The notes under the pieces: model-generated
What the model was told of the DNA's origin: nothing
Seen by the model: the letters and a program-made list of their open reading frames with translations, nothing else
Database searches by the model: none
Program-made: the position numbers and the translations under genes
Shown: piece by piece, positions 18,163-64,000 of the stretch
Layout of the letters: each line of letters begins with the position of its first letter
Numbering within the stretch: position 1 is the first letter of the stretch
Assembly: GCF_003260195.1 (NCBI RefSeq)
Contig: NZ_QEIH01000006.1
Span: forward strand, 124,001-188,000
Reading direction: 5' to 3'
Source: Lutibacter citreus
Lineage (GTDB): Bacteria > Bacteroidota > Bacteroidia > Flavobacteriales > Flavobacteriaceae
Length of the DNA stretch: 64,000 nucleotides

Positions 18163-21147
18163 TTATTCCTTCAAAATTTTTACAGTTATTAACGGTTCGT
18201 TTTTAAGTTTAATTTTCGCAATATATACACCTGTTGGATAGTGCTCTAAATTTAATTGAATTTTACCATTTTGAATTTTAATTACTTTTGTTGAAAGTTT
18301 TTGAGATTGAAAATTAAACAATTCTACTTCAACTAATTTTTCTTCTACATTTAATGGTATTTCCACATAACTCTTTGTTGGGTTTGGAAATGCCTTAATC
18401 ATATATTCATTTAATGAACCTTCACAAGTTACATTTGATTTTACAGAAATTTTATCACCCGTTTTAATATCAATTAAGAAATTATTCATAGAGGTATTCA
18501 ATACATTCTCACCATTAACTTGAACATTAAACGGTGCTGTTCCTTTTATAATTTCCACTGAAGCTTTATGGTTTAAAAAACTGATTTTCCCTGAAATTTC
18601 TGAAGCCTTTTCCACTTTTACCTTATAACATTGCTCTAAACTATTTAAAGATTTTATACATAAAATATAAGAACCAGGTGCTATATCTTCAAATTCAACT
18701 TCATTTGTAAAAACCTTTTTCACACCATTTAAATCTGCTGTAAATTCTTCATCTCCATCAATTGAAATTTTTACATTTCCATTTTTTTCATTTGGACAAG
18801 TTTCTCCAATAACTTCAATATTAAAATTTTTAACCGCAAGTTTTTTTTCTGAAACAGCCAATAAAAGAACACCCTCGGGCTTCATAATAAATGGAGATTT
18901 TATTTTTTCTCCAGTAATTAAATTAGTTATTTCCGAATTTGATATTCCTTTTAAAACCAACTTAACAGAGGCGCTTTCTTTCCCTACATTAACTATTGAA
19001 ACAACATTTTCACCTGCATTATTTTTATAAGACCTCCATGTACACCCTTTTAAGTTTAAACTGTTAGATTCTGTTAAAATCACATTTGGCAATCTGTTTT
19101 TAGCTTCCATTAAATCTAATGCTTTTGAAGAAATATCCCCAAAACTTGATCCTGAAATTAAAACACCTCCATTATCTGTATTTAAACTTTTCGTATGAGG
19201 TTCACCATATTCATTTTTCTTTAAACTTTCTGAATCTAAAATAATAGTTCCTCCATTATTTAAATATTCTTGTAGTCCATCTAATTCACTTTCTGTAACA
19301 AACTCTGTATTATAAACCAACACTACATCCCATAAAGAGTTATTTTGTTTTTTTATAATGTTTTCAGTTGCAAAACCAAGGGATAAACCTTCAAAGTATA
19401 GCGATTCATAAAGCTCAAAAATACCATCCATATGATTGGTTTTATTTAAAGCTGATGCCTCGGAATAAAAAATACGAATTGGTTTTCTTAAATTTTGTAA
19501 AACTGTAATATCTTCTGAAAATGTATTTAAATCCATTAAAGTTGATGCCACTTCATTCACTACTCTTGGTTGCTGATTGTTGGAACCTGCATATCCTTTA
19601 TCTGAACTATTTCTTACAGAACCATCTTCTCTTCTTGACCAATACCACGTTTGAACAACATTTAAACCTTGAACATATGCCAACCAATAAGTCATACGCG
19701 CATATGATTTTTTTTGATATAAATCTCTTGATTTAGTTGTTGATAAGAAATGTCCTTCTGAATTATAATTTATTTTATTTAGACTTATTGATTTGAAAAA
19801 ATCATAAGACATTGCCAATTCTCTCCATTCAAAATTATAACGACTTTCCCATTCTTCAGTTGGTCCCCACATATAATTATTATGCGAGCCTGCATCGTTT
19901 CCTAAAATTTCACTCTGGCTCATTAACGCTTCAAAATCCAATCCATAATCTCTTGCGTTTCCACTCCACATTTTAGGAATTAACTTAATATGGGTTTTAG
20001 CTTTGGAGTCATGTTTTTGAATTTCACTTCTTAAAAATGAAAACCATTCTGTTACCCGATCCATATTAAATCGTTGCCAATCGTACCACATTGGTGTTCC
20101 TCTTAAAGATATTTCAATAGGAATATCAATTGTAATGTCATTAAATGATGAAAAACTCTTACCCCATAAAGCATTTAAATCTGAAATTGAAGTATGCTTT
20201 GTTTTCAGCCAAATTCTAAACTTAGCTTTTGTAAATTCTGAAACAGGTCCGCTAGCCCAAACTTTTTTACTTCCATCTTTTGTGGTAATAAAATGAGGTT
20301 CATTGGCTAACATATAACCCAATTCTGTATATTTTTTATTAGCCATTTGAGGTACAGTTCCACCAAGTAGCAATCCTTGCATTTCTAGAGCTCCGGGATT
20401 ATCAATATCATAAGCCGTATAAGTATCTTCTCGCATTTTAAAGCCAGGACCGTATTTAGTTTCTGCCCAATTAGGAACATTTTTATGATTTAAAAACACA
20501 CTTCCAAATCTCCCTCCATCCGTTTTGCTTTGAATATCGTTGAGTAAATTATCTTTTATAGTACCATTGGCATTTGTTACAGAAGTTGGAGTCATAAAAA
20601 CCCCATCTTTATCACCAAAATACTCGGTTAATTCAGGTATACTCGGTTTCCAAGTATAATCATCTAAAAATACTGGTTTCCCATTTTGAACAACTTTATT
20701 ACCCTCTATTGAAACCTTTGCCCAATCAATTTTAGGAATTGGTTTTCTCTTTAATTCACCATTAATTAGTTTAGTTAAATATGTTGTTGCGTCATCTAAC
20801 ATTAAAACAATTTCATTTCTTTCAAAATCTGGTAAATCTGCCGCCATTTTAGCTGCATTATCTCTATAAATTTGAACTTCGTTAAAATAACTAGTGTTTT
20901 CAGTTAAATGGTTTTCATCCCAATTTGCATATTTAAGAAACACTTCAGCAGTTCTAATTGTCATTTTTTCTTTGGAAGCATCAATCCCTGCTTCTTCTGC
21001 TTTTTCAATAAGAACCTCTAAATCTGTTATTTTAGATTTTGCAGTTTGCTCTAGTTGAGCATATAAACTATTAGTCACTATTAAAAATAAAAGCAACACA
21101 ACTAAAGTAGTATTGCTTTTATATAAACATTTATTTAATATTTTCAT
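18163..21147 (-). CDS. GH42-like (clan GH-A) glycosidase with type IX secretion domain
   Basis: The ATG at 21147 gives 994 residues; an in-frame TTG two codons earlier is less likely. Signal peptide to about residue 30, then a helical region (about 33-130). The clan GH-A TIM barrel covers about 145-530, with candidate acid/base Glu283 in LANEPHF and nucleophile Glu464 in NSEGHFL. Residues about 550-650 (RIFYSEASAL, NNGGTIILDSE) resemble the GATase-like trimerisation domain of GH42. Beta domains follow, and the last ~75 residues (AFPNPTKSYVEIPL then GVYIAKIKLKN) are a type IX secretion C-terminal domain. Beta-galactosidase-type activity on a galactan is likely; GH167 or another GH42 relative cannot be excluded. 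It follows a sulfatase by 8 bases. Confidence 0.75.
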   Translation of the reverse strand: MKILNKCLYKSNTTLVVLLLFLIVTNSLYAQLEQTAKSKITDLEVLIEKAEEAGIDASKEKMTIRTAEVFLKYANWDENHLTENTSYFNEVQIYRDNAAKMAADLPDFERNEIVLMLDDATTYLTKLINGELKRKPIPKIDWAKVSIEGNKVVQNGKPVFLDDYTWKPSIPELTEYFGDKDGVFMTPTSVTNANGTIKDNLLNDIQSKTDGGRFGSVFLNHKNVPNWAETKYGPGFKMREDTYTAYDIDNPGALEMQGLLLGGTVPQMANKKYTELGYMLANEPHFITTKDGSKKVWASGPVSEFTKAKFRIWLKTKHTSISDLNALWGKSFSSFNDITIDIPIEISLRGTPMWYDWQRFNMDRVTEWFSFLRSEIQKHDSKAKTHIKLIPKMWSGNARDYGLDFEALMSQSEILGNDAGSHNNYMWGPTEEWESRYNFEWRELAMSYDFFKSISLNKINYNSEGHFLSTTKSRDLYQKKSYARMTYWLAYVQGLNVVQTWYWSRREDGSVRNSSDKGYAGSNNQQPRVVNEVASTLMDLNTFSEDITVLQNLRKPIRIFYSEASALNKTNHMDGIFELYESLYFEGLSLGFATENIIKKQNNSLWDVVLVYNTEFVTESELDGLQEYLNNGGTIILDSESLKKNEYGEPHTKSLNTDNGGVLISGSSFGDISSKALDLMEAKNRLPNVILTESNSLNLKGCTWRSYKNNAGENVVSIVNVGKESASVKLVLKGISNSEITNLITGEKIKSPFIMKPEGVLLLAVSEKKLAVKNFNIEVIGETCPNEKNGNVKISIDGDEEFTADLNGVKKVFTNEVEFEDIAPGSYILCIKSLNSLEQCYKVKVEKASEISGKISFLNHKASVEIIKGTAPFNVQVNGENVLNTSMNNFLIDIKTGDKISVKSNVTCEGSLNEYMIKAFPNPTKSYVEIPLNVEEKLVEVELFNFQSQKLSTKVIKIQNGKIQLNLEHYPTGVYIAKIKLKNEPLITVKILKE

Positions 21148-21155
21148 GTTCAATC

Positions 21156-22598
21156 TTAAAATGGAAATAATTCTGATGGTTCACTTGCATCAACCATTAA
21201 TTGCTTTAATTCTTTTACTATTTCTGGATGATTTTTAGCTAAGTTATTGTTTTCACTAATATCTTTCGATAAATCATACAATTCAAATTCCCCTGGTTTT
21301 TTTGCTTTTATATTGTACCAAACACCTTTCCAGTTATCTTTTCTTATGGCTTTTCTACCATTTTGAATACTAAATTCCCAATACAAATAATCGTGTTGTT
21401 TTTGTGTGTTTTCACCTAATAAAGTAGGTAATAATGAAATTCCATCAATATCTTTTGCTCCTTCAACTTTAGTAATATCAGCTATTGTTGGCATAATATC
21501 CCAAAATGCAGAAACAAAGTTAGATGTGCTACCTTCTTTAACTTTTCCCGGCCAAACAACTACAAAAGGAGTACGAATTCCTCCTTCATATAAATCCCTT
21601 TTTATTCCTTTTAATCCTCCTGCTGAGTTGAAAAATTCTGGATCTGCACCTCCCTCAGCATGAGGCCCATTGTCACTTGCAAACATAATTATAGTATTAT
21701 CTGCAATCCCCAATTCATTTACTTTATCAACTATTTGACCAACATAAACATCTAACCTATCTATCATTGATGCAAAAGCTGCATGAGGCATTTCTTGAGA
21801 ACAATATTCTTTAGGAATAATATCTGGTCCATAATCTGATGTATAACTAGCATCACTTGTTAATGGTGTTTCTTCAAATTTCCCTTTATATTTATTGAAA
21901 ATAGAATCATTTGGTGAAATAAGTTCTGCATGTGGTAACACAAGTGGTACATAAGCAAAAAATGGTGTTGCTTTATTTTCTTCAATGAATTTTAAAGTTG
22001 CCTCTTGAATTTTATCCGGAGCATAGGTAACCGTATTTATCCAATCATTACCTTCTAATAATACTTTATTCTGATTTTCCCAAAGGTGTGGAGGATAATA
22101 ACGGTGTGCCATACGCTGACAATTATACCCATAAAAAACATCAAACCCTTGATTGTTTGGATCACCTTCATTAAAACCCAATCCCCATTTTCCAAAAGCA
22201 CCTGTTTTATAACCTGCTGTTTTTAATACTTCTGCAATTGTAACAGATTCAGCTGGTAAAGGAATTTGCCCCTCTTCATTTAATTCTTTATTTCCTCTAA
22301 TTGGTGTATGTCCTGTATGTTCACCAGTCATTAATGAAGATCTAGAAGGTGCACAAACAGCAGAACCAGTATAATGTTGTGTAAATTTCATCCCTCTGGT
22401 TGCTAAAGCATCAATATTTGGAGTTTTAATTTTTTGTTGACCATAACAACTTAAATCACCATAACCTAAATCATCCGCTAAAATATAAATGATATTTGGT
22501 TGTTTAACTTCTTGTTTTATTGCTTCTTCTTGTTTTTTTGCTTTACCGCATGAAACGGCCAAAAGCAGACCTAAAAGCATTAATAGAAACTTATTCAT
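21156..22598 (-). CDS. S1 family sulfatase lipoprotein
   Basis: The start chosen is ATG 22598 (480 residues), because it gives a lipoprotein signal, LLAVSCGKAKK with Cys17; the longer frame starts in non-signal sequence. Formylglycine-type S1 sulfatase: metal ligands Asp42-Asp43 (YILADDLGYGD), modification motif CAPSR with Cys82, then GEHTGHTPIRGN, and the second metal site around MFASDNGPHAEGG. C-terminal KAIRKDNWKGVWYNI is the usual subdomain. It resembles the sulfatase at 40305 (same TGHTxIRGNK segment), so the two probably belong to one subfamily. It leads a two-gene unit with the GH42-like enzyme. Likely desulfates galactan oligosaccharides in the periplasm or at the surface. Confidence 0.9.
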   Translation of the reverse strand: MNKFLLMLLGLLLAVSCGKAKKQEEAIKQEVKQPNIIYILADDLGYGDLSCYGQQKIKTPNIDALATRGMKFTQHYTGSAVCAPSRSSLMTGEHTGHTPIRGNKELNEEGQIPLPAESVTIAEVLKTAGYKTGAFGKWGLGFNEGDPNNQGFDVFYGYNCQRMAHRYYPPHLWENQNKVLLEGNDWINTVTYAPDKIQEATLKFIEENKATPFFAYVPLVLPHAELISPNDSIFNKYKGKFEETPLTSDASYTSDYGPDIIPKEYCSQEMPHAAFASMIDRLDVYVGQIVDKVNELGIADNTIIMFASDNGPHAEGGADPEFFNSAGGLKGIKRDLYEGGIRTPFVVVWPGKVKEGSTSNFVSAFWDIMPTIADITKVEGAKDIDGISLLPTLLGENTQKQHDYLYWEFSIQNGRKAIRKDNWKGVWYNIKAKKPGEFELYDLSKDISENNNLAKNHPEIVKELKQLMVDASEPSELFPF

Positions 22599-22651
22599 AA
22601 TTTTTATTTTTGGTTCTCCATTTTTTGTTATTACATTTCCTTGTACTTCGA

Positions 22652-22697
22652 ATGTGCTCAGCAATCGGTCACTGATTGCCTTTCAAACTAAGCACAT
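22652..22697. other. Nested stem-loop in the 276-base spacer
   Basis: Outer arms ATGTGCT (22652-22658) and AGCACAT (22691-22697) enclose inner arms GCAATC (22661-22666) and GATTGC (22674-22679). It is GC-richer than the surrounding spacer. It lies in the leader of the sulfatase gene (start 22598), so it could be a terminator of the DUF1080 gene, an mRNA-leader structure or an operator. No known riboswitch was recognised. Confidence 0.4.
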
Positions 22698-22874: not shown

Positions 22875-23690
22875 CTAATCTAAAAATTCTCCAATTGGAA
22901 GTTCTTTATCAAATTCTTTAATTTCTATATTTCTGTAAAAAATTTCAGCAGTTTCAGATTGAAAACCAATTATCCCTTCACTAACTTTAAGATTTACTCC
23001 CATGTTTACTATTTCACCATTTAATTTATGGATACAATATTTATCTCCCATTACAATAACTTCGCACTTATTCCACTTATCATTTAATCCGTTAAATTTA
23101 GATGGTTTAGAGGCTAAATGCTCTCCGTTTTTCATTGGTTGAAGAATACCTCCTTTATCTGGATTTAAAAAAGTATTTCCGCCTTCTGCTGTATACCATT
23201 GCAATAAATTTCCAGCCCAAAAGTCTCCTGTATGGTTTTCATTTTTAATATGATTGTACCTTACTTGATATTCAATTCCTTTAGGCCAAATTTTATCATC
23301 TGTAACATGGTAATAACAACCCGCATCATATTGAAATTTATCGAAATTATTGGCTATTTTAGTCCCCCATTTGTATTCGAATCTCAAAATAAATTTACTG
23401 TATTTTTTTTTGGTATAAAACAGCCCATGTGTATCATTCTTGCCTGTATTTAAATTTATTGAATCTGGAAATTGATCATTAAATACATGAATCATATCAT
23501 CTTCTATGGAATACACTTTGTTCGCCATTTCCATATCTCCACTTCTAATTTTCAGATACCAACCAGTCCAGTTTTTACTATTGTGCAATTTTACAAAACC
23601 ATTGTTTTGATTCTTGTTTTTACAAGAGATAATAAGAACTCCAAATACTGCAATTGCTATAACACTATTTACTAAATACCTTAATTTCAT
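22875..23690 (-). CDS. DUF1080 lipoprotein
   Basis: A 271-residue lipoprotein (VFGVLIISCKNKNQ, Cys23) whose mature part is a DUF1080 domain (PF06439): FVKLHNSKNWTGWYLKI, FILRFEYKWGT, YDAGCYYHV, GIEYQVRYN, WNKCEVIVMGDKYCIHKLNGEIVNMG and GIIGFQSETAEIFYRNIEIKEF. The fold is a concanavalin-like beta-sandwich; some family members are reported as 3-keto-glycoside hydrolases and many are uncharacterised. It stands alone between the SusCD terminator and the sulfatase-GH42 unit, so it is probably its own transcript. Carbohydrate binding or hydrolysis is likely; the exact reaction is unknown. Confidence 0.8.
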   Translation of the reverse strand: MKLRYLVNSVIAIAVFGVLIISCKNKNQNNGFVKLHNSKNWTGWYLKIRSGDMEMANKVYSIEDDMIHVFNDQFPDSINLNTGKNDTHGLFYTKKKYSKFILRFEYKWGTKIANNFDKFQYDAGCYYHVTDDKIWPKGIEYQVRYNHIKNENHTGDFWAGNLLQWYTAEGGNTFLNPDKGGILQPMKNGEHLASKPSKFNGLNDKWNKCEVIVMGDKYCIHKLNGEIVNMGVNLKVSEGIIGFQSETAEIFYRNIEIKEFDKELPIGEFLD

Positions 23691-23819: not shown

Positions 23820-25538
23820 TTAAGTTCTAGGAACCAATGGTATCCATTTTACAGCATCAAAATACATTTTTTGAGCACCAGAAACTCCTGGATTATTAGA
23901 TATATCAACCTTCAAATCAAAACGTTTCCCTGATGGTATTGCACCAGTTGTAACAACTTGACTTATTTCTACCCATTCACCTCTTGGTAAATTTTCAATG
24001 TCCCATTCTAATAATTGAAAAGGTACTTGAATTGCTGTTGTAAACATTTTCATTGTATTTCCAGGTTCCAAATATATCATGTAAGATATTCTATAAGTTC
24101 CTTCAGGAATTCCGTTAGGTTTAGAAAAATCTGAACCTTGTAATGTCATATTTTTAGATAAATCAAATTGATATACAACGCTAAAATTACCTTCAAATAC
24201 TTTCTCATCTGTTTGTTGCCAAATTGGAGCTGAAGTTGATCCATTATCATCATTAGAATTACCTACCCAATATCCAAATAGCATAGCCGATTTCCAAAAA
24301 TCTGCTCTGTTCTTCTCATAACTACTCCAATCATTATCAAGTACATTTTCACCTAAATCAAATTTAACCGGAACTGCATCAAAATCTACCAATACTCTTT
24401 CATCAACAGAAACAATATTACCTCCATTAAATGAAACTTCTATTTCATCTGTATTAAATACAGCATCAACTAACTTTATTTCAATTAAAGTTGCATCTTC
24501 TTTATTTATTGAAACAGATTCAATTGCTACATTTTGATCAAATCCTGCTGCTTCATTTGTAACATGAACAGTAAAGAAATCTTTCTGATTTACAGCTTCA
24601 GCAGCCTCACCTGTTACAGCGAATGAAATAACACGATCTTCCAATTGAGCATTACCACCTATTACAAATGGTTTTGTTGAAGGCAATACTTCAATATTTA
24701 ATGGAATTAATTTATTTCTAGTATATTTTGGTATTGAATCTCCAGCTCTCGAAGACTCCATGTTTGCAGTAAACACACCTAATTTATTATATTTAATAAC
24801 AGCTGTATCTTTAGAACTTACATCTGGTTTTCCTCCATTTAAATAAAACTTTCTAGAAGAAGGTCTCCCAATTGTACTTTTATCTACATATACTAATTCC
24901 TCACCCGCTTCAATAGAAACCGTTGGCCAGCTACTTGCTGATTCTTCAGTTGGATCTTGAGAAGCATCTAAAGTTATTACTTCAACTAATGTTGGGTTCT
25001 CAGGGTCTACACTATAATCATATTTAAACACTTTACACTCAGGATTTGTGTTTTTAAAAACATCAATAGTAAATACTTTTTCAACTTGCCAATAGTCTCC
25101 TACCAAAACAGCATCAGTTACTGAATCTTTAAATGTATCAAAAAGTATAACTTCTTTAACTCCTGCCTCCGTAAAAAGCACATTAATTAAATCATCATTT
25201 GAAACTAATGAAGTAGAAGGAACAATAAATTTATCATAAATAGAATCTGTTTCTGTAAACTCTTTATTCAAAAACTTCCCAGATTCTGGAATAGTCCATT
25301 GGTGACTTAATGCATTCTCAGACACATCGAAAAAACCAACGTAAGTATCTAAATTTATTACTTTTTCACTTTCACGAGAGGTTGTTTTAGTTCCACTTGT
25401 GTACCATTTAAAACTTGAAAAGTCATCACTAACTCCAATAAAATCTTCCGCCAGTGAAATATCATCATCTGTACAACTTGTTGTGAAAGTAATAACGCTC
25501 AACAACAAAATTGCCCATGTTTTTATTTTTGTATTCAT
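23820..25538 (-). CDS. Surface glycan-binding lipoprotein (SGBP-type)
   Basis: A 572-residue lipoprotein: signal MNTKIKTWAILLLSVITFTTSC with Cys22, followed by TDDDIS, an acidic run typical of surface-exported Bacteroidota lipoproteins. The mature part is a series of beta-sandwich domains, including a PKD-like region (residues about 200-270), an Ig-like region (about 290-385) and a C-terminal jelly-roll segment (TYRISYMIYLEPGNTMKMFTT, then KMYFDAVKWIPL). It is third in an operon after SusC and SusD with 11 bases between genes, the usual place of SusE/F-like binding proteins. Sequence does not match a named family by eye; role from position and architecture. Confidence 0.75.
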   Translation of the reverse strand: MNTKIKTWAILLLSVITFTTSCTDDDISLAEDFIGVSDDFSSFKWYTSGTKTTSRESEKVINLDTYVGFFDVSENALSHQWTIPESGKFLNKEFTETDSIYDKFIVPSTSLVSNDDLINVLFTEAGVKEVILFDTFKDSVTDAVLVGDYWQVEKVFTIDVFKNTNPECKVFKYDYSVDPENPTLVEVITLDASQDPTEESASSWPTVSIEAGEELVYVDKSTIGRPSSRKFYLNGGKPDVSSKDTAVIKYNKLGVFTANMESSRAGDSIPKYTRNKLIPLNIEVLPSTKPFVIGGNAQLEDRVISFAVTGEAAEAVNQKDFFTVHVTNEAAGFDQNVAIESVSINKEDATLIEIKLVDAVFNTDEIEVSFNGGNIVSVDERVLVDFDAVPVKFDLGENVLDNDWSSYEKNRADFWKSAMLFGYWVGNSNDDNGSTSAPIWQQTDEKVFEGNFSVVYQFDLSKNMTLQGSDFSKPNGIPEGTYRISYMIYLEPGNTMKMFTTAIQVPFQLLEWDIENLPRGEWVEISQVVTTGAIPSGKRFDLKVDISNNPGVSGAQKMYFDAVKWIPLVPRT

Positions 25539-27295: not shown

Positions 27296-27307
27296 TTTTT
27301 GTACTTT

Positions 27308-40300: not shown

Positions 40301-40304
40301 AAAA

Positions 40305-48761: not shown

Positions 48762-48775
48762 TTTACTGGGTTTTA

Positions 48776-52411: not shown

Positions 52412-53509
52412 CGCTTTTGGGCCAATATTTAATAATAAACATCCGTTTTTACTTACAATATCAATCAATTCATCTAACAAATAATTAGATGTTTTGTATT
52501 CTTCATCTTTAATATATCCCCAAGAGATTTTACCGATAGAAGTATCAGTTTGCCAAGGATATTTATAAATACCATCCATTCTACCACGTTCAATATCCAA
52601 GGTAATTAAATCTTCAGGAAACGATTTTCCTTTCATATTTTTATCTTGAAAAACAACGCCTTTATCCCAATCTAACCCTTTATTGTAATAGTATGAAAGT
52701 ATTTTCTTGTGCATTGGTTCAAAACCTGGCTTATCTAAACCAAAATCGAACCATAATAAATCTGGTTGGTAATTATCAATAATATCAGTTGTTCTGTTCC
52801 ACCATAAATCTAGAAACTCTTTAGATGGTAATGAATTTCTTTCAACTTTTTTCCAATATAAATCTTGATATTGAGGATCATTCACATCATAACTTGGATC
52901 TGCGTGATTGTAATACGCTCTATTTAAAGCAAAATGAGAAGAAACTCCAAATTTCATCCCTTCAGATTTACAAGCTTCAGACAGCATTTGCATAACATCT
53001 TTTTTAGGTCCCATATTTACAACATTCCAACGTGTAAAATTTGATTTATACATTGCAAATCCATCGTGATGTTCAGCAACAGGAACTACATAACGAGCTC
53101 CAGCTTTTTTAAATAAAGAAGCCCATTCTTTAGCGTCAAAATTCTCTGCTTTAAACTTCGGAATTAAATCTTTATAACCAAATACAGAAGGATCTCCGTG
53201 ATGCTCTCTATGATGAGTCCAAGGATTCATCCCTCCTTTGTTCCAACTTTTTTGATAAATTCCTTTTGGATATTTTTCACTACTATAAGCAGGCACAGCA
53301 TATGGACCCCAATGTAAAAATATCCCAAACTTAGCATCTTTAAACCATTCTGGAACCTTATAACCACTTCGAATAGATTCCCAATTTTCTTGATATCTAA
53401 ATGCTGTTTCTTCTACTTTTTTCTGTTTCTTTTTCTCTGTGCAAGAACTAAATCCTACTACAGCAATAATTATCAATGCTAAAAAATATTTCTTATTGAA
53501 ATATGACAT
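51986..53509 (-). CDS. GH29-type alpha-L-fucosidase-like enzyme
   Basis: ATG 53509 is chosen (507 residues): it gives a lipoprotein signal (AVVGFSSCTEKK, Cys23); the longer frame adds 14 residues without signal character. GH29 barrel with FGIFLHWGPYAVPAYS (His66), VVPVAEHHDGFAMY (His147, His148), FGVSSHFALNR and nucleophile Asp255 (LLWFDFGLDKP). All expected active-site His are intact, so it is the canonical copy. GH29 cleaves alpha-L-fucose and sometimes alpha-L-galactose; in a galactan locus the natural substrate is uncertain. It leads the unit GH29-GH29-sulfatase-GH2 and has the shared element 175 bases upstream. Confidence 0.88.
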   Translation of the reverse strand: MSYFNKKYFLALIIIAVVGFSSCTEKKKQKKVEETAFRYQENWESIRSGYKVPEWFKDAKFGIFLHWGPYAVPAYSSEKYPKGIYQKSWNKGGMNPWTHHREHHGDPSVFGYKDLIPKFKAENFDAKEWASLFKKAGARYVVPVAEHHDGFAMYKSNFTRWNVVNMGPKKDVMQMLSEACKSEGMKFGVSSHFALNRAYYNHADPSYDVNDPQYQDLYWKKVERNSLPSKEFLDLWWNRTTDIIDNYQPDLLWFDFGLDKPGFEPMHKKILSYYYNKGLDWDKGVVFQDKNMKGKSFPEDLITLDIERGRMDGIYKYPWQTDTSIGKISWGYIKDEEYKTSNYLLDELIDIVSKNGCLLLNIGPKADGTIPDEAKTILEEMGSWLTVNDEAIFNTRPWKIFGEGPTKVSKGHHSEKNNKESGFEDIRFTIKDDILYATSLGWADNGVFTIKSLAKGNEYESREIVSIQFISGANKIDWKQTEKGLQINVEGKKPCEAAFSFKIEFKK

Positions 53510-53683
53510 ATATATCTTTAAAGCTACTAAAAACGTGTTTTTTGAAATCATCTATAATTATAATTTTGTTGTGGTTATTTCTTTTAATCTCTAGCATATT
53601 ATTTCTATCTGCTGAATAAATACAATTACACCAATGTGAAAATGCTTCAATATTAAAAAACATTTGTTCCCACAAGTATAGAA

Positions 53684-55616: not shown

Positions 55617-55685
55617 TCGATTGTTTTTATAATTTTTTACTAATTGAATAGTTATATTCATTTTTGATTATTTCAAGTGTATAGT

Positions 55686-58298
55686 TTATTTTTTAATAAT
55701 TTCTTTAATAATAATATTTCGATATCTAACTTTGGTATGATCTCCTTGCAAATAGATTGGACCTTTTTTTGTTACATCTGCATGTAAAGCACCATTTGTA
55801 CATCCAAGAATAGGCTCATTATCAATTACTTTTTCACCATTTAAAATAACGGTTACATGACGGTCAATTAATGTGATATTATAATGTTGCCATTCACCAC
55901 CATCTTTCCCAAAATTTCCTTTTGGTATAATTCGATTAAAAATAGATCCTACTCCATGCATTCCTTGCATTCTACTATCATGGTCAACAACCTGCACCTC
56001 ATAAAGTCCTCTTAAATATATTCCACTATTACCTCCTGTAGGAACATTAAATTCTAGATCTAAATTAAAATCAGTAAATTCTCTTTCCGTTCTTAGATTA
56101 CCATAATGAGCAAAAGGGTTGAAGGTTTTTTTAGGTGTATCATTAAACAAAACACCATCAACTGCTTTCCATTTATTTATTTGATTTGGGTTTGTTAGCT
56201 TCCACCCGTTCAAATCTTTTCCATTAAATAACTCTATTGGCTCTCCATATTCAACTTGACTTAAATCTGGTTTAGGAGGTGTTGGTGCAATACGCACACC
56301 GTTAAATTTCACTTTTTTGAAAGTTCCATCATTTTTTGGTACTTCAACTTCTATATTTAATTTATCACCTATAATTGTTGCTGAATGCCTAAGGGCTATT
56401 TTTGGACCAGAGGCAGGACCGTCTTTATATTTCCGCTCACCAATTGAACGGTTATGAGTAAAATACAGTTTATTATTTTCAACTGAAATATTAGATAAAG
56501 GTTTAGGTGCTCCTACCATCCAAAGTTCTCCTTTTAAATTCTCATCTTTCTCGGTAATAGACAGCCATCCAGCAGAACCATATGGCATAGACAAGGCCCA
56601 ATTGCCTATAAAACGATAAGCTTTATTCTTCGGATTTAGTTTTTTCAATTCAATTTTTCGAAATTGAATTGGGTGACTCTCAGATTGTAATGAAATGGTT
56701 CCTTTATTTATTAAAATGTTATTGTTTTCAATAAATGGTAACACTTCAGGTAAACGTTTATCAAACTGTGGTTTAAAATATTCTATAACAGTTTCCCCAT
56801 CAATTTTATACCGTATAACATCATTACCATGTACTTCTATTTCTACCTCAACCCATTGATCTCCATGAAAAGTTTCTGAATTACTTTTAGTTATCGGTTT
56901 TTTAATTAATTCTCCTCCAATTTCAACATTAGTTCCTGGGGTACATAGATTTAAATTTGAACGATCATCTTTACCATTTCCACCGAGTAATTGAGCTTCT
57001 AATGAAATAGGAAATTTTTGCATCTTTTTCATCTGGGATGGATCTTGACCATGAATCATAATACCGCTATTACGAAATGCCCATTCTGGCCCATTTTTTA
57101 TTTGATCACCAATAAAACGGTATTCCACTCGCAGAATATAATGAGATAAAAGTTCTTTATAGAAAAGGTGTCCAAATTTGTCAAAAGTACTCTTCCCTTT
57201 ACCATCCAAATTCTCTAAATCTGCTTCTTTATATTTATCATAAGACACAGTTAGCAAACCTTCTTCAACTCTAAAGGTATCAGCATAATTAACCCCAATA
57301 TTATGACCTCTAATTTTTGGAATCCAACCTGTAAGATCTTTTCCATTAAAAAGTTTAATCCATTCTGATTCATTTTGAATTGTTGCTACTTGATTACTAT
57401 TTATTAAATTCTTTTCGAAAAAATCCACTACATTCTGATGCAATTTTTTTTCTTTGAAAAACCCATGACCTGCATCTGGAACAAGAATCAACTTCGTATC
57501 CACATTTGCCACTTGCAGTCGTTTATGTAAATTTTCACTTTCTGTACAAGGAACATTCGAATCTTGTTCACCATGCATCAATAAAAAAGGCACATCATCT
57601 TCACTAACATAATTAATTGAACTAGCCATTTTAGCCTTAGAAATATTTTTTTGAATTACTCCTCCAATAAGCTGTACAACTGGGTCAACCTCAGGTTTCA
57701 ACTTTTTTATGTTATACGCACCCATTTCAATCATATCTGAAGGCCCAAACCAATTACATGCTGCTTGTACATTACTAGACACATTTGTTATACCAATAGA
57801 TCCTTCTAATTCTTCAACTCCATTTGTTGTCCCCAAAAGAGCTGCTAAATGTCCACCCGCAGAGGAGCCCCAAACTCCAATTTTATCAGGGTCAATTCCA
57901 AAACTTCTTGCATTTTTTCTTAAATAGCGAATTGCAGCTTTACAATCATGAATTTGAGCTGGATAAATATGTTCAGGTACGAGACGATAATTTATAGAAG
58001 CTAATGCAAAACCATGTTTTAAGACAAATGCATTTCTCTCAATCATATTTTTAGACCCTTTTTTCCAACTTCCACCATGTATCCAAACTATTAACGGTAA
58101 AGATTCTTTACTTGAAATTTCAGGTAAATACAAATCAAGTTTTTGAAGAGAATGTCCATCTTTTACATATGGTAGATTTTTAAAAATTTTAGTTCCTAAT
58201 GGTATCAAACTCTCATTATCTACAACATTATTCTTCTGAGCATTGGATGTAAACGCAATACTCAAAAAAATGACCAATACAATTTTTAATAATTTCAT
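55686..58298 (-). CDS. Alpha/beta hydrolase fused to two DUF1080 modules
   Basis: An 870-residue exported fusion (signal peptide ending TSNAQ). Residues about 45-300 are an alpha/beta hydrolase of the esterase type: oxyanion HGG (74-76), Ser146 in GSSAGG, Asp246 (HGEQD) and His278 (DAGHGF). Residues about 313-555 form DUF1080 module 1 (LFNGKDLTGWIPKI, LSLEAQLLGG). A lipocalin-like barrel follows (about 570-670), then DUF1080 module 2 (about 690-870: LFNGKDLNGWKLTN, GNSGIYLRGLYEVQVVD). DUF1080 is a glycan-binding or 3-keto-glycoside hydrolase fold. The esterase might remove acetyl or another acyl from the polymer. It lies between a sulfatase and a GH110. Confidence 0.8.
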   Translation of the reverse strand: MKLLKIVLVIFLSIAFTSNAQKNNVVDNESLIPLGTKIFKNLPYVKDGHSLQKLDLYLPEISSKESLPLIVWIHGGSWKKGSKNMIERNAFVLKHGFALASINYRLVPEHIYPAQIHDCKAAIRYLRKNARSFGIDPDKIGVWGSSAGGHLAALLGTTNGVEELEGSIGITNVSSNVQAACNWFGPSDMIEMGAYNIKKLKPEVDPVVQLIGGVIQKNISKAKMASSINYVSEDDVPFLLMHGEQDSNVPCTESENLHKRLQVANVDTKLILVPDAGHGFFKEKKLHQNVVDFFEKNLINSNQVATIQNESEWIKLFNGKDLTGWIPKIRGHNIGVNYADTFRVEEGLLTVSYDKYKEADLENLDGKGKSTFDKFGHLFYKELLSHYILRVEYRFIGDQIKNGPEWAFRNSGIMIHGQDPSQMKKMQKFPISLEAQLLGGNGKDDRSNLNLCTPGTNVEIGGELIKKPITKSNSETFHGDQWVEVEIEVHGNDVIRYKIDGETVIEYFKPQFDKRLPEVLPFIENNNILINKGTISLQSESHPIQFRKIELKKLNPKNKAYRFIGNWALSMPYGSAGWLSITEKDENLKGELWMVGAPKPLSNISVENNKLYFTHNRSIGERKYKDGPASGPKIALRHSATIIGDKLNIEVEVPKNDGTFKKVKFNGVRIAPTPPKPDLSQVEYGEPIELFNGKDLNGWKLTNPNQINKWKAVDGVLFNDTPKKTFNPFAHYGNLRTEREFTDFNLDLEFNVPTGGNSGIYLRGLYEVQVVDHDSRMQGMHGVGSIFNRIIPKGNFGKDGGEWQHYNITLIDRHVTVILNGEKVIDNEPILGCTNGALHADVTKKGPIYLQGDHTKVRYRNIIIKEIIKK

Positions 58299-58413: not shown

Positions 58414-59976
58414 TTACAAATACTCTTTAACTACTTTTAATTGCGGCCATTTTACATTAGGATCTTTTACGTCTGTAGGTTGATTTTCACCTTCTGTACT
58501 ACGCCCATTTTTAATAACTGCAGCTAGTTTTTTCTTTAATTTCTCAACAACTTCTGGATATTTAGCTGCTAAATTAATATTCTCAACAGCATCATTTTCC
58601 ATATCAAATAACAACAAATCTGCAGTATCTTTAATTGGCTCACTTTCTCTTGGATCTCCCCTTTTAGAGCCTCCAAAATTATCAAACATTAGTTTCCATT
58701 TTCCATAACGTACAGAAAAAACACCCACATCTGAATGATGAACTACAGCTCTATCTTTTAATTCAGGAATACTTTTATTTTTTAAGGCTGGCAAAAAACT
58801 AACACTATCTTCTCCCTCATTATCATTTAAATCAAAATTTAAAACTTCAGCACAAGTAGCCATTAAATCGGTTGTACAAATAAGTTGGTTAGAAACTTGA
58901 TTTTTTTCAACTTCATTTGGCCAACGCACTACAAAAGGAACTCTATGACCACCTTCCCAGTTTGTACCTTTCATTCCTCTATAAATCCAACTTGAATGAT
59001 GTCCTTTTTTTGCCATTACAGGAAAACCTGCTTTTGGCGAAGTACCATTATCTGCCGTAAAAACAAGTATGGTATTATCTGCAATTCCTAATTCATCTAA
59101 TGTTTTCATTACTTCTCCAACAGCCCAGTCAGTTTCCATACAAAAATCACCATGGTCATTTAATTCGCTTTTTCCTGCAAAATCTTTATTAGGAACAATT
59201 GGTGAGTGCGGTGCATTTAAAGGCATATACACAAAAAATGGCTTGTCTGAGTTTTTTCTAATCCAATCGCATGTTTTTTTAGTAAATGTTGGTAAAACCT
59301 GATCTTGCTCAAATTCTTTAGCTGACCAACCTGGTTTTGCTCCAATATAACCACGTTTTTTTAACGCATCTTGATCTTTTAAATACTCAAAAGTACCTTG
59401 AGCTTTATCATTTTCAATAAATACATGAGGATTCATATTCAATGAAGCAGCAATACCAAAATAATAGTCGAAACCATTAACATTTGGACCATTTTTAATT
59501 GGTGCATTCATATCTACATTGTTCGCTTTTTTTCTTACAGATTTTGATGCTTCAAGTTGTTTCCAATCCATTCCTAAATGCCATTTACCAACACAAGCAG
59601 TTGTATAACCTTGCTTTTTTAACAAACTAGCTACAGTTTCTCTTGAATTATTAATTAAATGCTCGCTATGACCACCTAAAACTCCCTTTTTTAATGCTGA
59701 AGTTCTCCAAGAATATCGTCCAGTTAAAATTCCGTAACGGGTAGGTGAACAAACTCCAGAACTTGTATGAGCATCTGAAAATTTAATCCCTTCTTTTGCC
59801 AATTTATCAATATTTGGCGTGGGTATTTTAGAGTCTTTATTATATATCATAACATCTCCAACCCCCATATCATCAGCCAAAATATAAACAATATTAGGTT
59901 TTTTCTGAGCATTGATATTAAACATCGTAAAAACTACAACAGCTAATTTTAATAAAATTTTTAAATTTGTTTTCAT
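58414..59976 (-). CDS. S1 sulfatase (CSPTR type)
   Basis: ATG 59976 gives 520 residues; a TTG one codon earlier is unlikely. Signal peptide (FNINAQKK). Metal ligands in YILADDMGVGDVMIY, formylglycine Cys76 in VCSPTRYGILTGRYSWRTS, later CVGKWHLGMDW and VFTADNGTSPKAG. The CSPTRYGxLTGRYxWRT signature marks a branch distinct from the other sulfatases, common among arylsulfatase A/GALNS-like enzymes of marine Bacteroidota. First gene of the unit that continues with the hydrolase/DUF1080 fusion and GH110. Which sulfate it removes is unknown. Confidence 0.92.
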   Translation of the reverse strand: MKTNLKILLKLAVVVFTMFNINAQKKPNIVYILADDMGVGDVMIYNKDSKIPTPNIDKLAKEGIKFSDAHTSSGVCSPTRYGILTGRYSWRTSALKKGVLGGHSEHLINNSRETVASLLKKQGYTTACVGKWHLGMDWKQLEASKSVRKKANNVDMNAPIKNGPNVNGFDYYFGIAASLNMNPHVFIENDKAQGTFEYLKDQDALKKRGYIGAKPGWSAKEFEQDQVLPTFTKKTCDWIRKNSDKPFFVYMPLNAPHSPIVPNKDFAGKSELNDHGDFCMETDWAVGEVMKTLDELGIADNTILVFTADNGTSPKAGFPVMAKKGHHSSWIYRGMKGTNWEGGHRVPFVVRWPNEVEKNQVSNQLICTTDLMATCAEVLNFDLNDNEGEDSVSFLPALKNKSIPELKDRAVVHHSDVGVFSVRYGKWKLMFDNFGGSKRGDPRESEPIKDTADLLLFDMENDAVENINLAAKYPEVVEKLKKKLAAVIKNGRSTEGENQPTDVKDPNVKWPQLKVVKEYL

Positions 59977-60334
59977 CAATTAATACTTTAAATTATTTTC
60001 TTATTTCTTATTTCTTGTTTCACTAGTCTCTTTATATACTTATCAAAAGATTCTCCCTTAAAGGAGACTACTAAATAACTGCTTTTACAAGAAAAACATG
60101 TCTTTAAGAGTTCTTTAAATGTTGCTCTTGATTTAAGAATGATACCTAAAACCTAACCTATATGATTTTTCTCATGAGTTTAACTAAAAAACACACCTTA
60201 TTAAAAAAGTGTGTTTTTTTTATATATCCTATAAATGAAATACTACCCGTTCTCCATTTAATTAATTAAAATACATCAATATAAATCACTGTATTTTTAA
60301 CAGAACCATAGAAAGTGCTCTAAATTTAAACGTG
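59977..60334. other. 358-base non-coding region between GH82 and the sulfatase
   Basis: No gene is supported. It holds the GH82 terminator (60186-60221), and a small dyad TCTCC-N6-GGAGA (60052-60067), which may be an operator or leader hairpin of the sulfatase unit. The AATGTAT-N6-GTAAAT element seen in three other spacers is absent. No -7/-33 promoter pair could be recognised. Confidence 0.5.
60186..60221 (-). terminator. Terminator after the GH82 gene
   Basis: Arms AAAAAACACAC (60186-60196) and GTGTGTTTTTT (60209-60219) with a 12-base loop and U-runs on both sides. It lies 114 bases after the stop at 60335. Confidence 0.85.
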
Positions 60335-61864
60335 CTATTTTCTTTCCTTTTTATTTTTCTTTTTCTCCTTTTTCACTTTTGTTCCCTTAATTTTCTTTGT
60401 CTTCTTTTTTCCTCCAATCTCTGTTGAAAAATTAGGTGATCCCCCACAACTATAATTAGTATTTATAGAAATTGTCTCAACATTGCTTCCAAAACCTTGT
60501 CCAACAATTGTAGTTTCATCTATGTTAATACGATAACCTCCATCACCAATTTCTCCACTTGCAGCAGTGTAATGAAAAGGAAATAAAGAAGGTCCAACTC
60601 GGGATTCAAAATCTAAACCATTTTTTGTACTTAAACCAACGTTAGCTTGGTTTGTACCTCTGTCAATTCTTAAATTACAAGGAATATATCTAAAGTTCTT
60701 AGATTTAATTTGAGCAAATTGTCCAAATTCAGCAACAACATCTGTAACTGTAGAATTACTTGCAAATGAGCCTTTTTCAATTCCGAATTTAGAAACTTCT
60801 AATCCTGCTTTTTCTTCTCTCTTAAAATTATTGATAAAACCTTTACTTACTTCACCTCCAGCTTCGCAACTTTTGGTTCTTATTTTAGAAAGAAACACAC
60901 TTCCTTGTTTTACTGTGTGAGGAGACATTGTAAAAGCAGCATGACCATTACTACAGCTAATGTTGTTAGCATAAACTTGGTCTATTTTAGGTTGTTTATC
61001 AATAGTTAATGGTAATTCAATCCCATCAATAACATACGTATGTGCAGAACCAACGGGTCTAAAAAGTTGATTTATATTTAAACCAGATTCTAATCTTAAT
61101 GTAACACCACCTTTACCACTTAAATCTCTGTAAACAACATTATTACCAGCTTGCATTTGTATAAGCCCATAACCATAACTTCCGTTTTCGTTGTGCATTT
61201 TTTCAATGATTCCTTTACTTGGTACACCAAATACTTCATTAATTAATTTAGTTCTGTTACTTTTCTTACCCTTTTCATTAAAAATATTTACACTAGTAGC
61301 ATCCGAAGCTAATACTACTGAAGCTATTTTTGTGAAATTATCTAATATAGTAACGTTAGATATCTTAAAGTTGGTAACATAGCCTAGAACAATAAAACTA
61401 TTTTTTTTAGAATCGGTTTCTGAGTTGCCATATTTAAAATGAACTTTAAACGGATCTGAATTTTCTCCTTTTATTCCTACAATACTAAAGTTAGAAACAG
61501 GTTTTCCTTTTGTTGTACTTCTTGCATTAAAGATTACTCCAGTTTTGTTCATATAAAGGTTAACGCCAGATTCTATATGGATATGCACATTACTTTTTAA
61601 TTCTACACCTTCTTTAAAGTTGTAATCTCCTTTTTTAATGGTTATAATTCCTCCTCCTTTTTTGTTAACCTTATCAATAGCCTCAGTTAACTCTTTATCT
61701 ATAAATCCTTTATCGCCTTGCTTTGCTGTAATTGTGATATCATTATTTCCGTAAACTGGATTAAAATAAAAATTATCAGCCTTTTGAGTTTGTCCAAATG
61801 AATTTGAAACAACGCTTATTGTGAATAAAAGAATGAATGTAAATTGTTTTTTTATATTATGCAT
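60335..61864 (-). CDS. GH82 (iota-carrageenase-type) beta-helix protein
   Basis: A 509-residue exported right-handed beta-helix (signal peptide ending near NSFGQ). It aligns by recall with Alteromonas fortis iota-carrageenase across the helix: NSFIVLGYVTNFKISNVTILDN, GIIEKMHNENGSYGYGLIQM, NNISCSNGHAAFTMSPH and KFGIEKGSFASNSTVTDVVAEFG. The acid position is Glu259 (LRLESG), but the base, Asp two residues later in A. fortis, is Gly261. His316 (SPHTVKQG) is kept. A Lys-rich C-terminal tail (residues about 487-509) is unusual. It follows a GH2 gene by 63 bases. Endo-cleavage of iota-carrageenan or a related sulfated galactan is likely, unless activity is altered. Confidence 0.85.
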   Translation of the reverse strand: MHNIKKQFTFILLFTISVVSNSFGQTQKADNFYFNPVYGNNDITITAKQGDKGFIDKELTEAIDKVNKKGGGIITIKKGDYNFKEGVELKSNVHIHIESGVNLYMNKTGVIFNARSTTKGKPVSNFSIVGIKGENSDPFKVHFKYGNSETDSKKNSFIVLGYVTNFKISNVTILDNFTKIASVVLASDATSVNIFNEKGKKSNRTKLINEVFGVPSKGIIEKMHNENGSYGYGLIQMQAGNNVVYRDLSGKGGVTLRLESGLNINQLFRPVGSAHTYVIDGIELPLTIDKQPKIDQVYANNISCSNGHAAFTMSPHTVKQGSVFLSKIRTKSCEAGGEVSKGFINNFKREEKAGLEVSKFGIEKGSFASNSTVTDVVAEFGQFAQIKSKNFRYIPCNLRIDRGTNQANVGLSTKNGLDFESRVGPSLFPFHYTAASGEIGDGGYRINIDETTIVGQGFGSNVETISINTNYSCGGSPNFSTEIGGKKKTKKIKGTKVKKEKKKNKKERK

Positions 61865-61927: not shown

Positions 61928-64000
61928 TTAATTTATTAATATTTCATCAATAAACACTCCAGTATCTTCAACAGAAATAAGCTTTATCGTATTTGCTCCT
62001 CTATTTAATTTAATTGGTACTTTTACTTTATTCCATCTACCTCCTTGGCTTCTTGTATTTCGTAAAAACAGTTTATCTTTTACTATTTCTCCATTAACAG
62101 AAACTTTAATATAAGTTCCTCCTTCACCATCAATTTTACTACTATAACGAATATATAAATCTGCTTCTCCAGCGCCACCATCATTCTCTTGATACCATTC
62201 AATTGAAGCTCCTATCTTTTTATCAAATTTCACATAACCTTTTCCATTATATTTTGATCCTCTTTTAGAAATTTCAGCATCTATTAATTTTGCGTCTTCG
62301 GCTTGCTCACCTGCTATTACATATTCATTCTGAATTTCATTCCAAACAAAACCTTCATTTTTAGCAAATCTCTCTTCTAATTGCTGAACTTCTTTTCCGT
62401 TTAAAACAACCAATGCTTTTACAGTAGTTCCTAATTCAACAGAAAATGATTCTGTATATTTTTTTGAATTCTTAGTTGGAATTGAACCATCAACCGTATA
62501 AAACACTTCAATTTCAGCCTTCGGAAGATTTCCTCTTAAAGCTAATAATTGAGTATCAATACTTACCTTGTTTGATGTTATTTGTTTCTTTTCTCCAAGA
62601 ATACAGCTTGCTAATAATGTAATAGGTTCACTACCTTCAAAAGACTCAACATAAGCACGTGTTAAACCATAAAACGCAATTCTGTTTTCAGCTTCAAAAT
62701 GTTGCTCTACATCAATTGGACTTCCATTATCTAACGCTTTAATTTTTCCTGCACCAAGCACTTTAAAATAAGTTCTATTTTCTCCATAAGGATACATTTC
62801 CCCATTTTCATCTGTACTTGTAACACGAACTTGAACAATGTCTTTTCCCTTTGAAGTTAATACATCACCATCAACAGATAATTTAATTTTTGAAGGTGCA
62901 TTCGCAGTTCTAATTATTTTTTCTGAAACAGCTTTTCCATTATTGTAACCAATTGCTTTTAATTCTCCCGGTTTCCAAGGCACCATCCATTGGCATTGCA
63001 TTTTATCCCATTTTGCACCTGGCTTTATTTTACCTAAAGATTTTCCATTGAAAAATAATTCAATCTCATCACAATTTGAATACACCCAAACCGGTATTTC
63101 AATTCCTAGTTCAACTTTTGGATGTGTCCAATGCGGTAATATATGCACCATTGGTTTTGATGTCCACTGACTTTGGTATAAATAGAATAAATCTTTTTCA
63201 AAATTTGCCATATCTATTGCTCCTCCCATAAACGATTTAAATGGCCAACCACCGTGAACATAACTTGCTTCTCCAATATAATCATAACCAGTCCAACGAA
63301 ACGAACCAGCATATTTTGGAATATCTCTTAATTGCTCAATATTTAATCTAGATGAAACACGAACCATCGCATTATCATAACTAGAATTGAAAATTTGCTT
63401 AGGATTTAATCGCTCTAAATTAGAAGTCCAATCGTGAGAAAACACCTCTTTTTCAGTTAAATCTGGAAGCGGATATGGTTTTTGCTTTTTACTTGGGAAT
63501 CCATCTCTAAACCAAGTTTTGGTTCGATAAAAACCTCTCACTTGCCAAGTATGCGTATTTTCTGTACCAATAAAAAATTGGTCATCTTCTAATTCATCAA
63601 AGAATCCCATTTTTTCACTGTGGCCGTTAACTCCATACACATCCATATATTCTGAACTTGAATGTCCAGAAGTTACCAAACGTGTATTATCTAATTTGTG
63701 ACAAGTTTCAACTAAGTCTTTTCCAATTTCACCGTGAGTTTCATTCCCAACACTATAAATTACAATTGATGGATGATTTCTATCTCTTTTAATCCAATCT
63801 GTAACATCACGCTTCCACCATTCATTAAAACTATGTGCTCCATAATCATTGGCTGCTTTTTTTAACCAACCATCAAAAATTTCATCCATAACCATCATAC
63901 CAAGCTCATCACATAAATCGTAAAAAATTGGAGTTTGTGGGTTATGAGAAGTTCTAATTGTATTCACACCCATATCCTTCAATTGCTTAATTCTAAAACG
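61928..64000 (-). CDS. GH2 beta-galactosidase-like enzyme, 5' part outside window
   Basis: The frame is open to the window edge (in-frame codons read RFRIKQLKDMGVN), so the N-terminal jelly-roll is not seen; the codon at 63982 is an internal Leu. The visible part holds the TIM barrel with RTSHNPQTPIFYDLCDELG, acid/base Glu in YSVGNETHG and nucleophile Glu in IGTENTHTW, then DUF4982-like and Ig-like domains (FFNGKSLGKIKPG). A chitobiase C-terminal-like module (VFYTVDGSIPTKNSKKYTE) and a CBM6/35-like domain (IEWYQENDGGAGEADLYIRY to FIDEILIN) follow. This extra C-terminus is not in the other GH2 proteins here. Upstream of GH82 by 63 bases. Probably a galactan beta-galactosidase. Confidence 0.88.
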   Translation of the reverse strand, partial: RFRIKQLKDMGVNTIRTSHNPQTPIFYDLCDELGMMVMDEIFDGWLKKAANDYGAHSFNEWWKRDVTDWIKRDRNHPSIVIYSVGNETHGEIGKDLVETCHKLDNTRLVTSGHSSSEYMDVYGVNGHSEKMGFFDELEDDQFFIGTENTHTWQVRGFYRTKTWFRDGFPSKKQKPYPLPDLTEKEVFSHDWTSNLERLNPKQIFNSSYDNAMVRVSSRLNIEQLRDIPKYAGSFRWTGYDYIGEASYVHGGWPFKSFMGGAIDMANFEKDLFYLYQSQWTSKPMVHILPHWTHPKVELGIEIPVWVYSNCDEIELFFNGKSLGKIKPGAKWDKMQCQWMVPWKPGELKAIGYNNGKAVSEKIIRTANAPSKIKLSVDGDVLTSKGKDIVQVRVTSTDENGEMYPYGENRTYFKVLGAGKIKALDNGSPIDVEQHFEAENRIAFYGLTRAYVESFEGSEPITLLASCILGEKKQITSNKVSIDTQLLALRGNLPKAEIEVFYTVDGSIPTKNSKKYTESFSVELGTTVKALVVLNGKEVQQLEERFAKNEGFVWNEIQNEYVIAGEQAEDAKLIDAEISKRGSKYNGKGYVKFDKKIGASIEWYQENDGGAGEADLYIRYSSKIDGEGGTYIKVSVNGEIVKDKLFLRNTRSQGGRWNKVKVPIKLNRGANTIKLISVEDTGVFIDEILIN

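Follow-up and report, generated by a model that had tools for sequence, protein, structure and literature searches.

A 121-kb gene locus of Lutibacter citreus with the gene content of a lambda- and iota-type carrageenan utilization system and a pair of GH29 genes

The 64,000-nucleotide stretch of Lutibacter citreus DNA analysed here (the window; C32:124001-188000, that is, part of contig C32 of a 5.1 Mb genome in 35 contigs) carries between positions 18163 and 64000 a series of genes for glycoside hydrolases (GH), sulfatases and transporters, among others. This series is the downstream 46 kb of a single polysaccharide utilization locus (PUL) of ~121 kb, C32:142163-263191, of which ~75 kb lie beyond the window edge and run on the minus strand up to C32:263191. 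All open reading frames of at least 150 amino acids (aa) listed up to C32:260995 are on the minus strand, as are the locus genes of the window. The upstream end of the locus is formed by a hybrid two-component sensor gene (C32:259061-263191), past which lie TMEM260-like, deacetylase and DNA polymerase I genes, while RsgA and D-Tyr-tRNA deacylase genes form the left border.

The 61 proteins named in the locus include five GH150, three GH110, three GH82, two GH167, seven GH2 and two GH29 enzymes and 17 sulfatases, along with one SusC/D pair, two FAD oxidoreductases, three DUF1080 proteins, a ThuA protein, two SASA esterases, CstA, Melibiase-, GH98- and GH5-like proteins and several proteins without a family. 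All five GH150 genes lie beyond the window edge (middle-domain E-values from 4e-62 to 5e-204), together with the third GH110, two GH82, the second GH167 and eleven sulfatases. For 18163-64000, the original prediction had listed one GH82, two GH110, two GH29, five GH2 and six sulfatase genes; each family and count was confirmed, all on the minus strand, and sequence matches at such low E-values are not chance. The GH167-type gene, the SusC/SusD pair at 25550-30385, two DUF1080 genes and the gene at 35128-36411 had been left unnamed.

The core of the locus resembles known systems for lambda-carrageenan, a sulfated galactose polymer without anhydro units. In the accessible text of PMC12549532, the published lambda cascade comprises GH150, S1_8 and S1_15 sulfatases, GH110 and GH2, and GH150 and GH82 are described as acting only on lambda- and iota-carrageenan. 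We compared the 61 proteins with 99.8 of the 144 kb of the Pseudoalteromonas carrageenovora plasmid and with 49.9 kb of a Flammeovirga plasmid. Reciprocal best matches to the P. carrageenovora lambda locus were obtained for GH150a (54% identity), GH150d (49%), GH110c (55%), GH2c (43429..45888; 42%, to the lambda-locus GH2) and sulfatase S_13 (44%), the last being linked to the lambda locus only by its match to a sulfatase there. GH110a (30542..32452), a predicted alpha-1,3-galactosidase with GLAA-B domains (PDB 9beh GH110A, E 1.5e-92; 7jw4, E 1.1e-91), is 64% identical to a Flammeovirga gene of a GH150-bearing locus. A PDB sequence search, which covered one of the 17 sulfatases, S_5 (48776..50365), placed it nearest to the S1_8 enzymes of the published lambda cascade (9bb9 S1_8A, E 2e-99; S1_8B, E 4e-81; S1_8C, E 4e-59), making it a candidate galactose-2-sulfatase of S1_8 type.

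Family searches of the genome found no GH127, GH129 or GH16 on contig C32. Elsewhere, the genome has three strong and two weaker GH127 matches, 14 GH16 matches and a single weak, partial GH129 match (26.5 bits against a threshold of 25.6); contig C1 holds three GH127, the GH129, three of the GH16 matches and one GH29, with no GH82 match. The window would lack GH127 and GH129 because lambda-carrageenan has no anhydrogalactose. Given the five GH150 genes in the continuation and the GH127/GH129 matches elsewhere, among them three GH127 on C1, the new exo-pathway for anhydrogalactose considered in the original prediction is not required. Its statement that GH16, GH127 and GH129 are missing holds for the window and for C32, including the part just beyond the edge, but not for the genome. 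Its broader proposal, a carrageenan-like PUL for a hybrid or non-standard sulfated galactan, agrees with what we find, namely a lambda- plus iota-type carrageenan locus. We put the probability that the locus serves lambda/iota carrageenan at roughly 80%. This reading explains the gap in anhydrogalactose enzymes of the window and indicates that iota-type and GH29 genes can be integrated into a lambda-type locus, which here extends over 121 kb. A locus of Paraglaciecola is reportedly 'sizeable', and we therefore do not claim a record size.

The iota branch is represented by GH82 and GH167. GH82a (60335..61864; no Pfam match) is distant from the solved iota-carrageenases (1h80, E 6e-26; 3lmw, E 7e-26), with the motif residues kept: all 14 homologues in the alignment have G231, Y232, G233, Q236, R257, E259 and H316. 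Of these 14, 11 come from the same genome, of which one further homologue was left out. The conserved GH82 active-site residues are G-Y, Q, R, E and H, of which Q, E and H are highly conserved (PMC3669377, accessible text). Our assignment follows the motif, and for the arginine it follows the motif only, since the R-E spacing is three in PMC3669377 and two in GH82a. Two positions after the glutamate, GH82a has Gly in place of Asp in the A. fortis GH82. Loss of GH82a function through this Asp-to-Gly change was considered and dropped, as Q, E and H are all kept. The genome contains ~12 GH82-like genes (14 matches), three of them in this locus. The two GH167 proteins are 53% identical to each other, and one, the last gene of the locus (18163..21153), encodes a predicted exo-beta-carrageenase with a type IX secretion system (T9SS) sorting tail (PDB 9whd, E 6e-245; 6ptm, E 3e-222; Pfam GH42 and Por_Secre_tail). 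GH167 of Pseudoalteromonas releases beta-neocarrabiose (PMC6923384, accessible text), and the combination of GH82 and GH167 known from the Pseudoalteromonas-type kappa/iota carrageenan PUL (CarPUL) is thus present here. A second large carrageenan-type cluster occupies ~31.6-127 kb of contig C2 (L052-L055), with ~seven GH82-like genes and many sulfatases as well as a GH150a-like gene (56%), a GH2e-like gene (62%), one GH29 and three relatives of the propeller-fold protein discussed below.

The original prediction had regarded GH29 as an odd addition to a carrageenan locus, a view that can now be sharpened. For both GH29a (50390..51922; Pfam E 4e-94) and GH29b (51986..53551; Pfam E 5e-103), the nearest solved relatives are the exo-alpha-L-galactosidase structures 7snk and 7ljj, at E ~1e-129 for GH29b (7snk, 6e-130; 7ljj, 1e-129) and 1e-122 for GH29a (7ljj, 7e-122), followed by fucosidases at 1e-78 to 1e-68. 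Both structures are of BpGH29, the exo-alpha-L-galactosidase of a porphyran locus (PMC12316285, accessible text). GH29b equals 7ljj at all 11 positions compared, including the nucleophile Asp and the motifs of the -1 site. GH29a keeps the nucleophile, but Asn replaces the His of FxHWG (FINWG) and Tyr replaces the first His of HHDG (ADYHDG). These positions correspond, as equated by motif, to histidines among His61, His114 and His115, which bond fucose in the -1 site of a solved GH29 (PMC7872956, accessible text).

The double change occurs in two of the 95 GH29 sequences tabulated, GH29a and L070_9908 of Flavivirga amylovorans. In a tree of 27 of these sequences, GH29a groups firmly with the Flavivirga gene (100/99) and GH29b with its Lutibacter oricola counterpart (100/99; 94% identity); the fork uniting the two clades, on which the age of the GH29a/GH29b split depends, is weak (83/59). 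Judging from this alignment and tree, the altered site is old enough to be common to two genera. Both reading frames are open and retain the nucleophile, which speaks against gene decay. As a naturally occurring variant, GH29a illustrates how the sugar site of a GH29 enzyme can be remodelled and the new form conserved. In five other sequences, the second His of HHDG is replaced by Cys or Ala, and L056_13040 of the same genome has Ile and Phe at the two histidine positions. The latter is one of two tandem GH29 genes that follow a GH82-like gene at C31:334920-339640 (L056), a parallel case to GH29a.

The end of GH29a appears to have a different history from the rest of the gene. Its last 426 bp (50390..50815) are 97% identical to GH29b, as compared to 76% in the preceding 674 bp, and identity at third codon positions falls from 94% to 57% across the breakpoint 426 bp ahead of the stop (log-likelihood gain of 57). 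The two tails (50390-50815 and 51986-52411) share 98% protein identity, with 90-91% to the L. oricola tail and 66% to the Flavivirga gene. From these sequence comparisons, the tail of GH29a is best read as gene-converted by GH29b.

Lutibacter oricola DSM 24956 has a largely syntenic locus of ~74 kb (C51:470718-544250; L066, L182-L186), in which gene order is kept from the sensor to CstA and most genes are 67-95% identical. The order GH110b-GH29b-S_5-GH2d is common to both species, at 82-95% identity for most of the block, including 87% for GH110b (53808..55661; GLAA-B domains), which adjoins GH29 there too, and 90% for GH2d (46056..48779). In contrast to the two GH29 genes here, the L. oricola locus has one, and it contains no match for GH82a, for the esterase-DUF1080 fusion or for the arm from GH2c to GH167a with SusC/SusD. 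Beyond this species, we examined GH29 neighbours in 29 of the 80 loci kept from 133 relatives, and searched for GH150 and GH82 in 10 of these. Four of the 10 genomes with the best outside GH29 matches gave a GH150 match, namely L. oricola, Flavivirga rizhaonensis, F. amylovorans and a Puniceicoccaceae metagenome-assembled genome. At the level of the phylum, GH150 is present in at least 2 of 395 Bacteroidota genomes, this one and G154, in a scan that scored 4 of the 13 candidates of the L. citreus genome itself.

Why a carrageenan locus should carry GH29 can be approached from the substrate. D/L-hybrid galactans and 4-O-methyl-alpha-L-galactose stubs have been described for red algae, and a review leaves it undecided whether the D/L hybrids represent a single molecule or a mixture (PMC7511586, accessible text). 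An exo-cascade meeting an L-unit would stall without an enzyme to remove it, and we tentatively propose, at somewhat less than even odds, that the GH29 pair removes L-galactose from D/L-hybrid carrageenans. If this is the case, the enzymes would be tools to test the one-molecule-or-mixture question and, to our knowledge, the first enzymes for D/L-hybrid carrageenans. A more specific version, which we consider unlikely, is an exo-module in which GH29b would take alpha-L-galactose after 2-desulfation by S_5 and GH29a a modified (O-methylated or sulfated) L-galactose, so that the locus would degrade mixed carrageenan/agaran galactans. Together with a propeller-fold glycosidase, such a module would bring enzyme functions for which we found no assignment in known carrageenan pathways.

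In favor of our interpretation, three of the five other genomes that carry a GH29 with 74% or more identity over the query also have GH150, as compared to at least 1 of 394 in the phylum sample (Fisher 4e-6, a p-value that is only indicative, as the genomes are related and the relatedness is ignored). Several other observations weigh against parts of it. GH29 is not needed for lambda-carrageenan, and no GH29 match was found in the compared stretches of P. carrageenovora, Flammeovirga and G154. Our searches found neither GH150 nor GH82 in Arenibacter aquaticus and Flavobacterium sp. UMI-01, which both belong to the five genomes with the closest GH29, and the GH29 pair of F. rizhaonensis lies on a different contig from its GH150 genes. 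No agarase-type family was detected by Pfam in the scanned locus proteins, so a source of L-galactose within the locus is not apparent. The scheme has no place for the two FAD oxidoreductases, CstA, the DUF1080/ThuA proteins or the GH98-, GH5- and Melibiase-like proteins. Since GH29 is absent from the compared stretches of three other GH150-bearing genomes and also present without GH150, it appears to be accessory to the lambda core and no part of it.

The same distribution can be cited for an alternative account, in which this is a plain carrageenan locus and the GH29 enzymes are passengers, ordinary alpha-L-fucosidases or side-chain enzymes for a mixed algal diet: GH29 is lacking in the compared parts of three other GH150-bearing genomes, and its clade occurs also without GH150. 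We regard this as rather unlikely, as the gene sits inside the GH110b-GH29-S_5-GH2d block common to L. oricola (87-94% identity), adjoins an S_5 homologue in Arenibacter as well, and is nearest to solved alpha-L-galactosidases (E ~1e-129) rather than to fucosidases (7e-78). It is far less probable that the likeness of GH82 and GH150 misleads and that the true substrate is a different sulfated glycan, for example fucoidan or a sulfated agaran. GH29 and many sulfatases do occur in fucoidan loci. The GH29-bearing ZGAL_3629-3638 cluster of Zobellia was assigned by its authors to another sulfated galactan although it is carrageenan-induced (PMC5698469, accessible text). Against this stand the joint presence of five GH150, three GH82, two GH167 and three GH110, the correspondence with the published lambda cascade and the described restriction of GH150 and GH82 to lambda- and iota-carrageenan (PMC12549532); a fucoidan locus was rejected on the five GH150 and three GH82, and this explanation as a whole seems to us barely credible.

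Two further explanations concern the anhydrogalactose step. GH29a, or both GH29 enzymes, could act as a 3,6-anhydro-galactosidase that replaces GH127/GH129 for the products of GH82; in keeping with this, GH29a has lost two sugar-site histidines, GH29 genes adjoin GH82 on C31 and lie near it on C2, and the Pseudoalteromonas iota/kappa pathway has an unknown beta-neocarrabiosidase (PMC12549532, accessible text). The genome has three GH127 and a weak GH129, however, and replacement of GH127 was rejected for this reason. Acting on a D-anhydro sugar would moreover take an unprecedented change in GH29, a family whose members known to us act on L-sugars of fucose or galactose shape, and the GH29 block of L. 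oricola has no GH82 beside it. That block, and the absence of a GH82 match in two of the five closest GH29 genomes, also led us to abandon a general tie between GH29 and GH82, and we consider a GH29 anhydro-galactosidase very unlikely. The other candidate is the protein encoded at C32:223272-224426, which has no Pfam match and no significant PDB sequence match. Its AlphaFold2 model (11 sequences, mean pLDDT, the predicted local distance difference test score, of 80.8) is a five-bladed propeller, with tied structure matches to GH117, GH43, GH159 and GH62, and its relatives adjoin the GH29a-type gene in F. amylovorans. Going by this model, the protein could represent an undescribed glycosidase family. 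That, as a new family near GH117/GH43, it also performs the anhydrogalactose step in the iota branch seems improbable to us: a shared fold shows no function, several families tie for the best fold match, GH127 is present in the genome, and the L. oricola homologue is only 30% identical.

Returning to a lambda/iota-carrageenan locus with accessory GH29, its operation could be as follows. The hybrid two-component sensor would switch the locus on, the five GH150 and three GH82 enzymes would cut the chain, and the fragments would be imported by SusC/SusD. With lambda fragments, S1_8-type sulfatases would remove the 2-sulfate from the terminal sugar, GH110 would then remove the alpha-1,3-galactose, and a sulfatase and GH2 the next beta-1,4-galactose, after which the cycle would repeat. 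With iota/beta fragments, other sulfatases would expose beta-neocarrabiose for release by GH167, with the anhydrogalactose bond left to the GH127/GH129 of contig C1 or possibly to the propeller-fold enzyme. The GH29 pair would remove alpha-L-linked galactose of D/L-hybrid galactans that would otherwise halt the exo-cascade, with GH29a, lacking the two sugar-site histidines, taking a modified residue, e.g., O-methylated or sulfated L-galactose.

The remaining window genes fit around these elements. Downstream of the SusC-like TonB-dependent transporter (27308..30385; TIGR04056, E 4e-233) and the SusD-like gene (25550..27295; PF07980, E 6e-29) lies a gene without a Pfam match (23820..25538), for which a SusE or surface-glycan-binding role is a guess based on position; its homologues trail SusC/SusD homologues in L059 and L048. 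GH2a (32667..35102, beta-galactosidase-like) and GH2b (36426..38777) flank a putative alpha/beta-hydrolase (35128..36411; no Pfam match) that is classed as esterase-like from a GFSRGA serine-hydrolase motif present in five of five aligned homologues; homologues, mostly weak and partial, were found in 35 of 397 genomes including this one. GH2e (61928..64000; 88% identical to L. oricola) is cut by the window edge, the whole gene (1010 aa) spanning C32:185928-188960. The sulfatases other than S_5 are S_1 (21156..22664; PF00884, E 6e-56; S1-type with a CAPSR motif), S_2 (38783..40321), S_3 (40305..41732) and S_4 (41742..43133), all three with PF00884, and S_6 (58414..59979; PF00884, E 3e-55); in all six window sulfatases, the formylglycine site shows a C-x-x-x-R motif with Cys. 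Genome-wide, the sulfatase family has 136 matches in 5.1 Mb, corresponding to ~132 genes (four genes are split into two pieces each), in many cases clustered on contigs C2, C30, C31, C32, C34 and C35.

DUF1080 (3-keto-disaccharide hydrolase) genes lie at 22875..23690 (lipoprotein-like; PF06439, E 5e-24), at 55686..58298, where a BD-FAE esterase is fused to two DUF1080 stretches, and at C32:237338-239215; one of the three adjoins ThuA. By their family assignment, a possible role is an oxidative 3-keto side route. The two FAD oxidoreductases (C32:198466-200397 and within C32:218483-223001) are 60% identical to each other, and one adjoins CstA and a 377-aa protein, a trio (FADox2-unk377-CstA) that is kept in L. 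oricola; similar genes also occur in G154, there without unk377, and in F. amylovorans. Between GH150 genes, C32:253252-255801 encodes two T9SS-tailed, otherwise family-less proteins that are possibly secreted carrageenan-binding proteins. A PDB sequence search with the GH98-like protein (C32:226237) gave no match. Against the other loci first compared, neither this protein nor the GH5-like protein, C32:202100 or the window gene at 35128 gave a match.

Lambda-type loci with GH150, GH110 and GH2 are already known, as is the combination of GH82, GH150 and GH167 in one locus. The lambda-CarPUL of Pseudoalteromonas distincta U2A and P. carrageenovora 9T shares GH150, a GH110 pair, GH2 and S1_8 sulfatases with the locus described here (PMC12549532, PMC6262041), which differs in being far larger (~121 kb; 5 GH150, 3 GH110, 7 GH2, 17 sulfatases), in its Bacteroidota SusC/D type and hybrid sensor, and in the added GH82, GH167 and GH29. 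In the accessible text of these sources, the term 'GH29' occurs 0 times in PMC6262041 and once in PMC12549532, and we found no described locus with GH29 and GH150 in the accessible text of openly licensed PMC papers. A lambda-type GH150/GH110/GH2 locus is also known in a Flavobacteriaceae strain (PMC6262041). CarPULs of ruminant Bacteroides, including BxMAGBOV, likewise combine GH82, GH150, GH167 and sulfatases in one locus, with GH110 and GH2 also among their members. They differ in carrying GH16_17, a subfamily that the locus described here lacks, and the accessible text of PMC13168452 has no mention of 'GH29'.

The kappa/iota regulon of Zobellia galactanivorans shares GH82 with this locus, as well as a cluster of GH29, GH2 and SusC/D induced by kappa- and iota-carrageenan (PMC5698469, accessible text). 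It relies on GH127/GH129-like enzymes, GH16, S1_19 and S1_7, whereas the locus described here lacks GH127/GH129. The GH29 cluster of Zobellia further includes GH28 and S1_28/S1_30; the Zobellia galactanivorans genome is described as lacking GH150 (PMC6262041, accessible text). Finally, BpGH29 (PMC12316285, PMC11189522, accessible text) shares FxHWG, AEHHDG, SSH, WFD, ERG and PWQTD with GH29b, while GH29a is without two of the histidines. The enzymes that accompany BpGH29 are GH16/GH86 porphyranases and an S1_11 6-sulfatase, whereas GH29 in L. citreus stands beside GH110 and an S1_8-type sulfatase.

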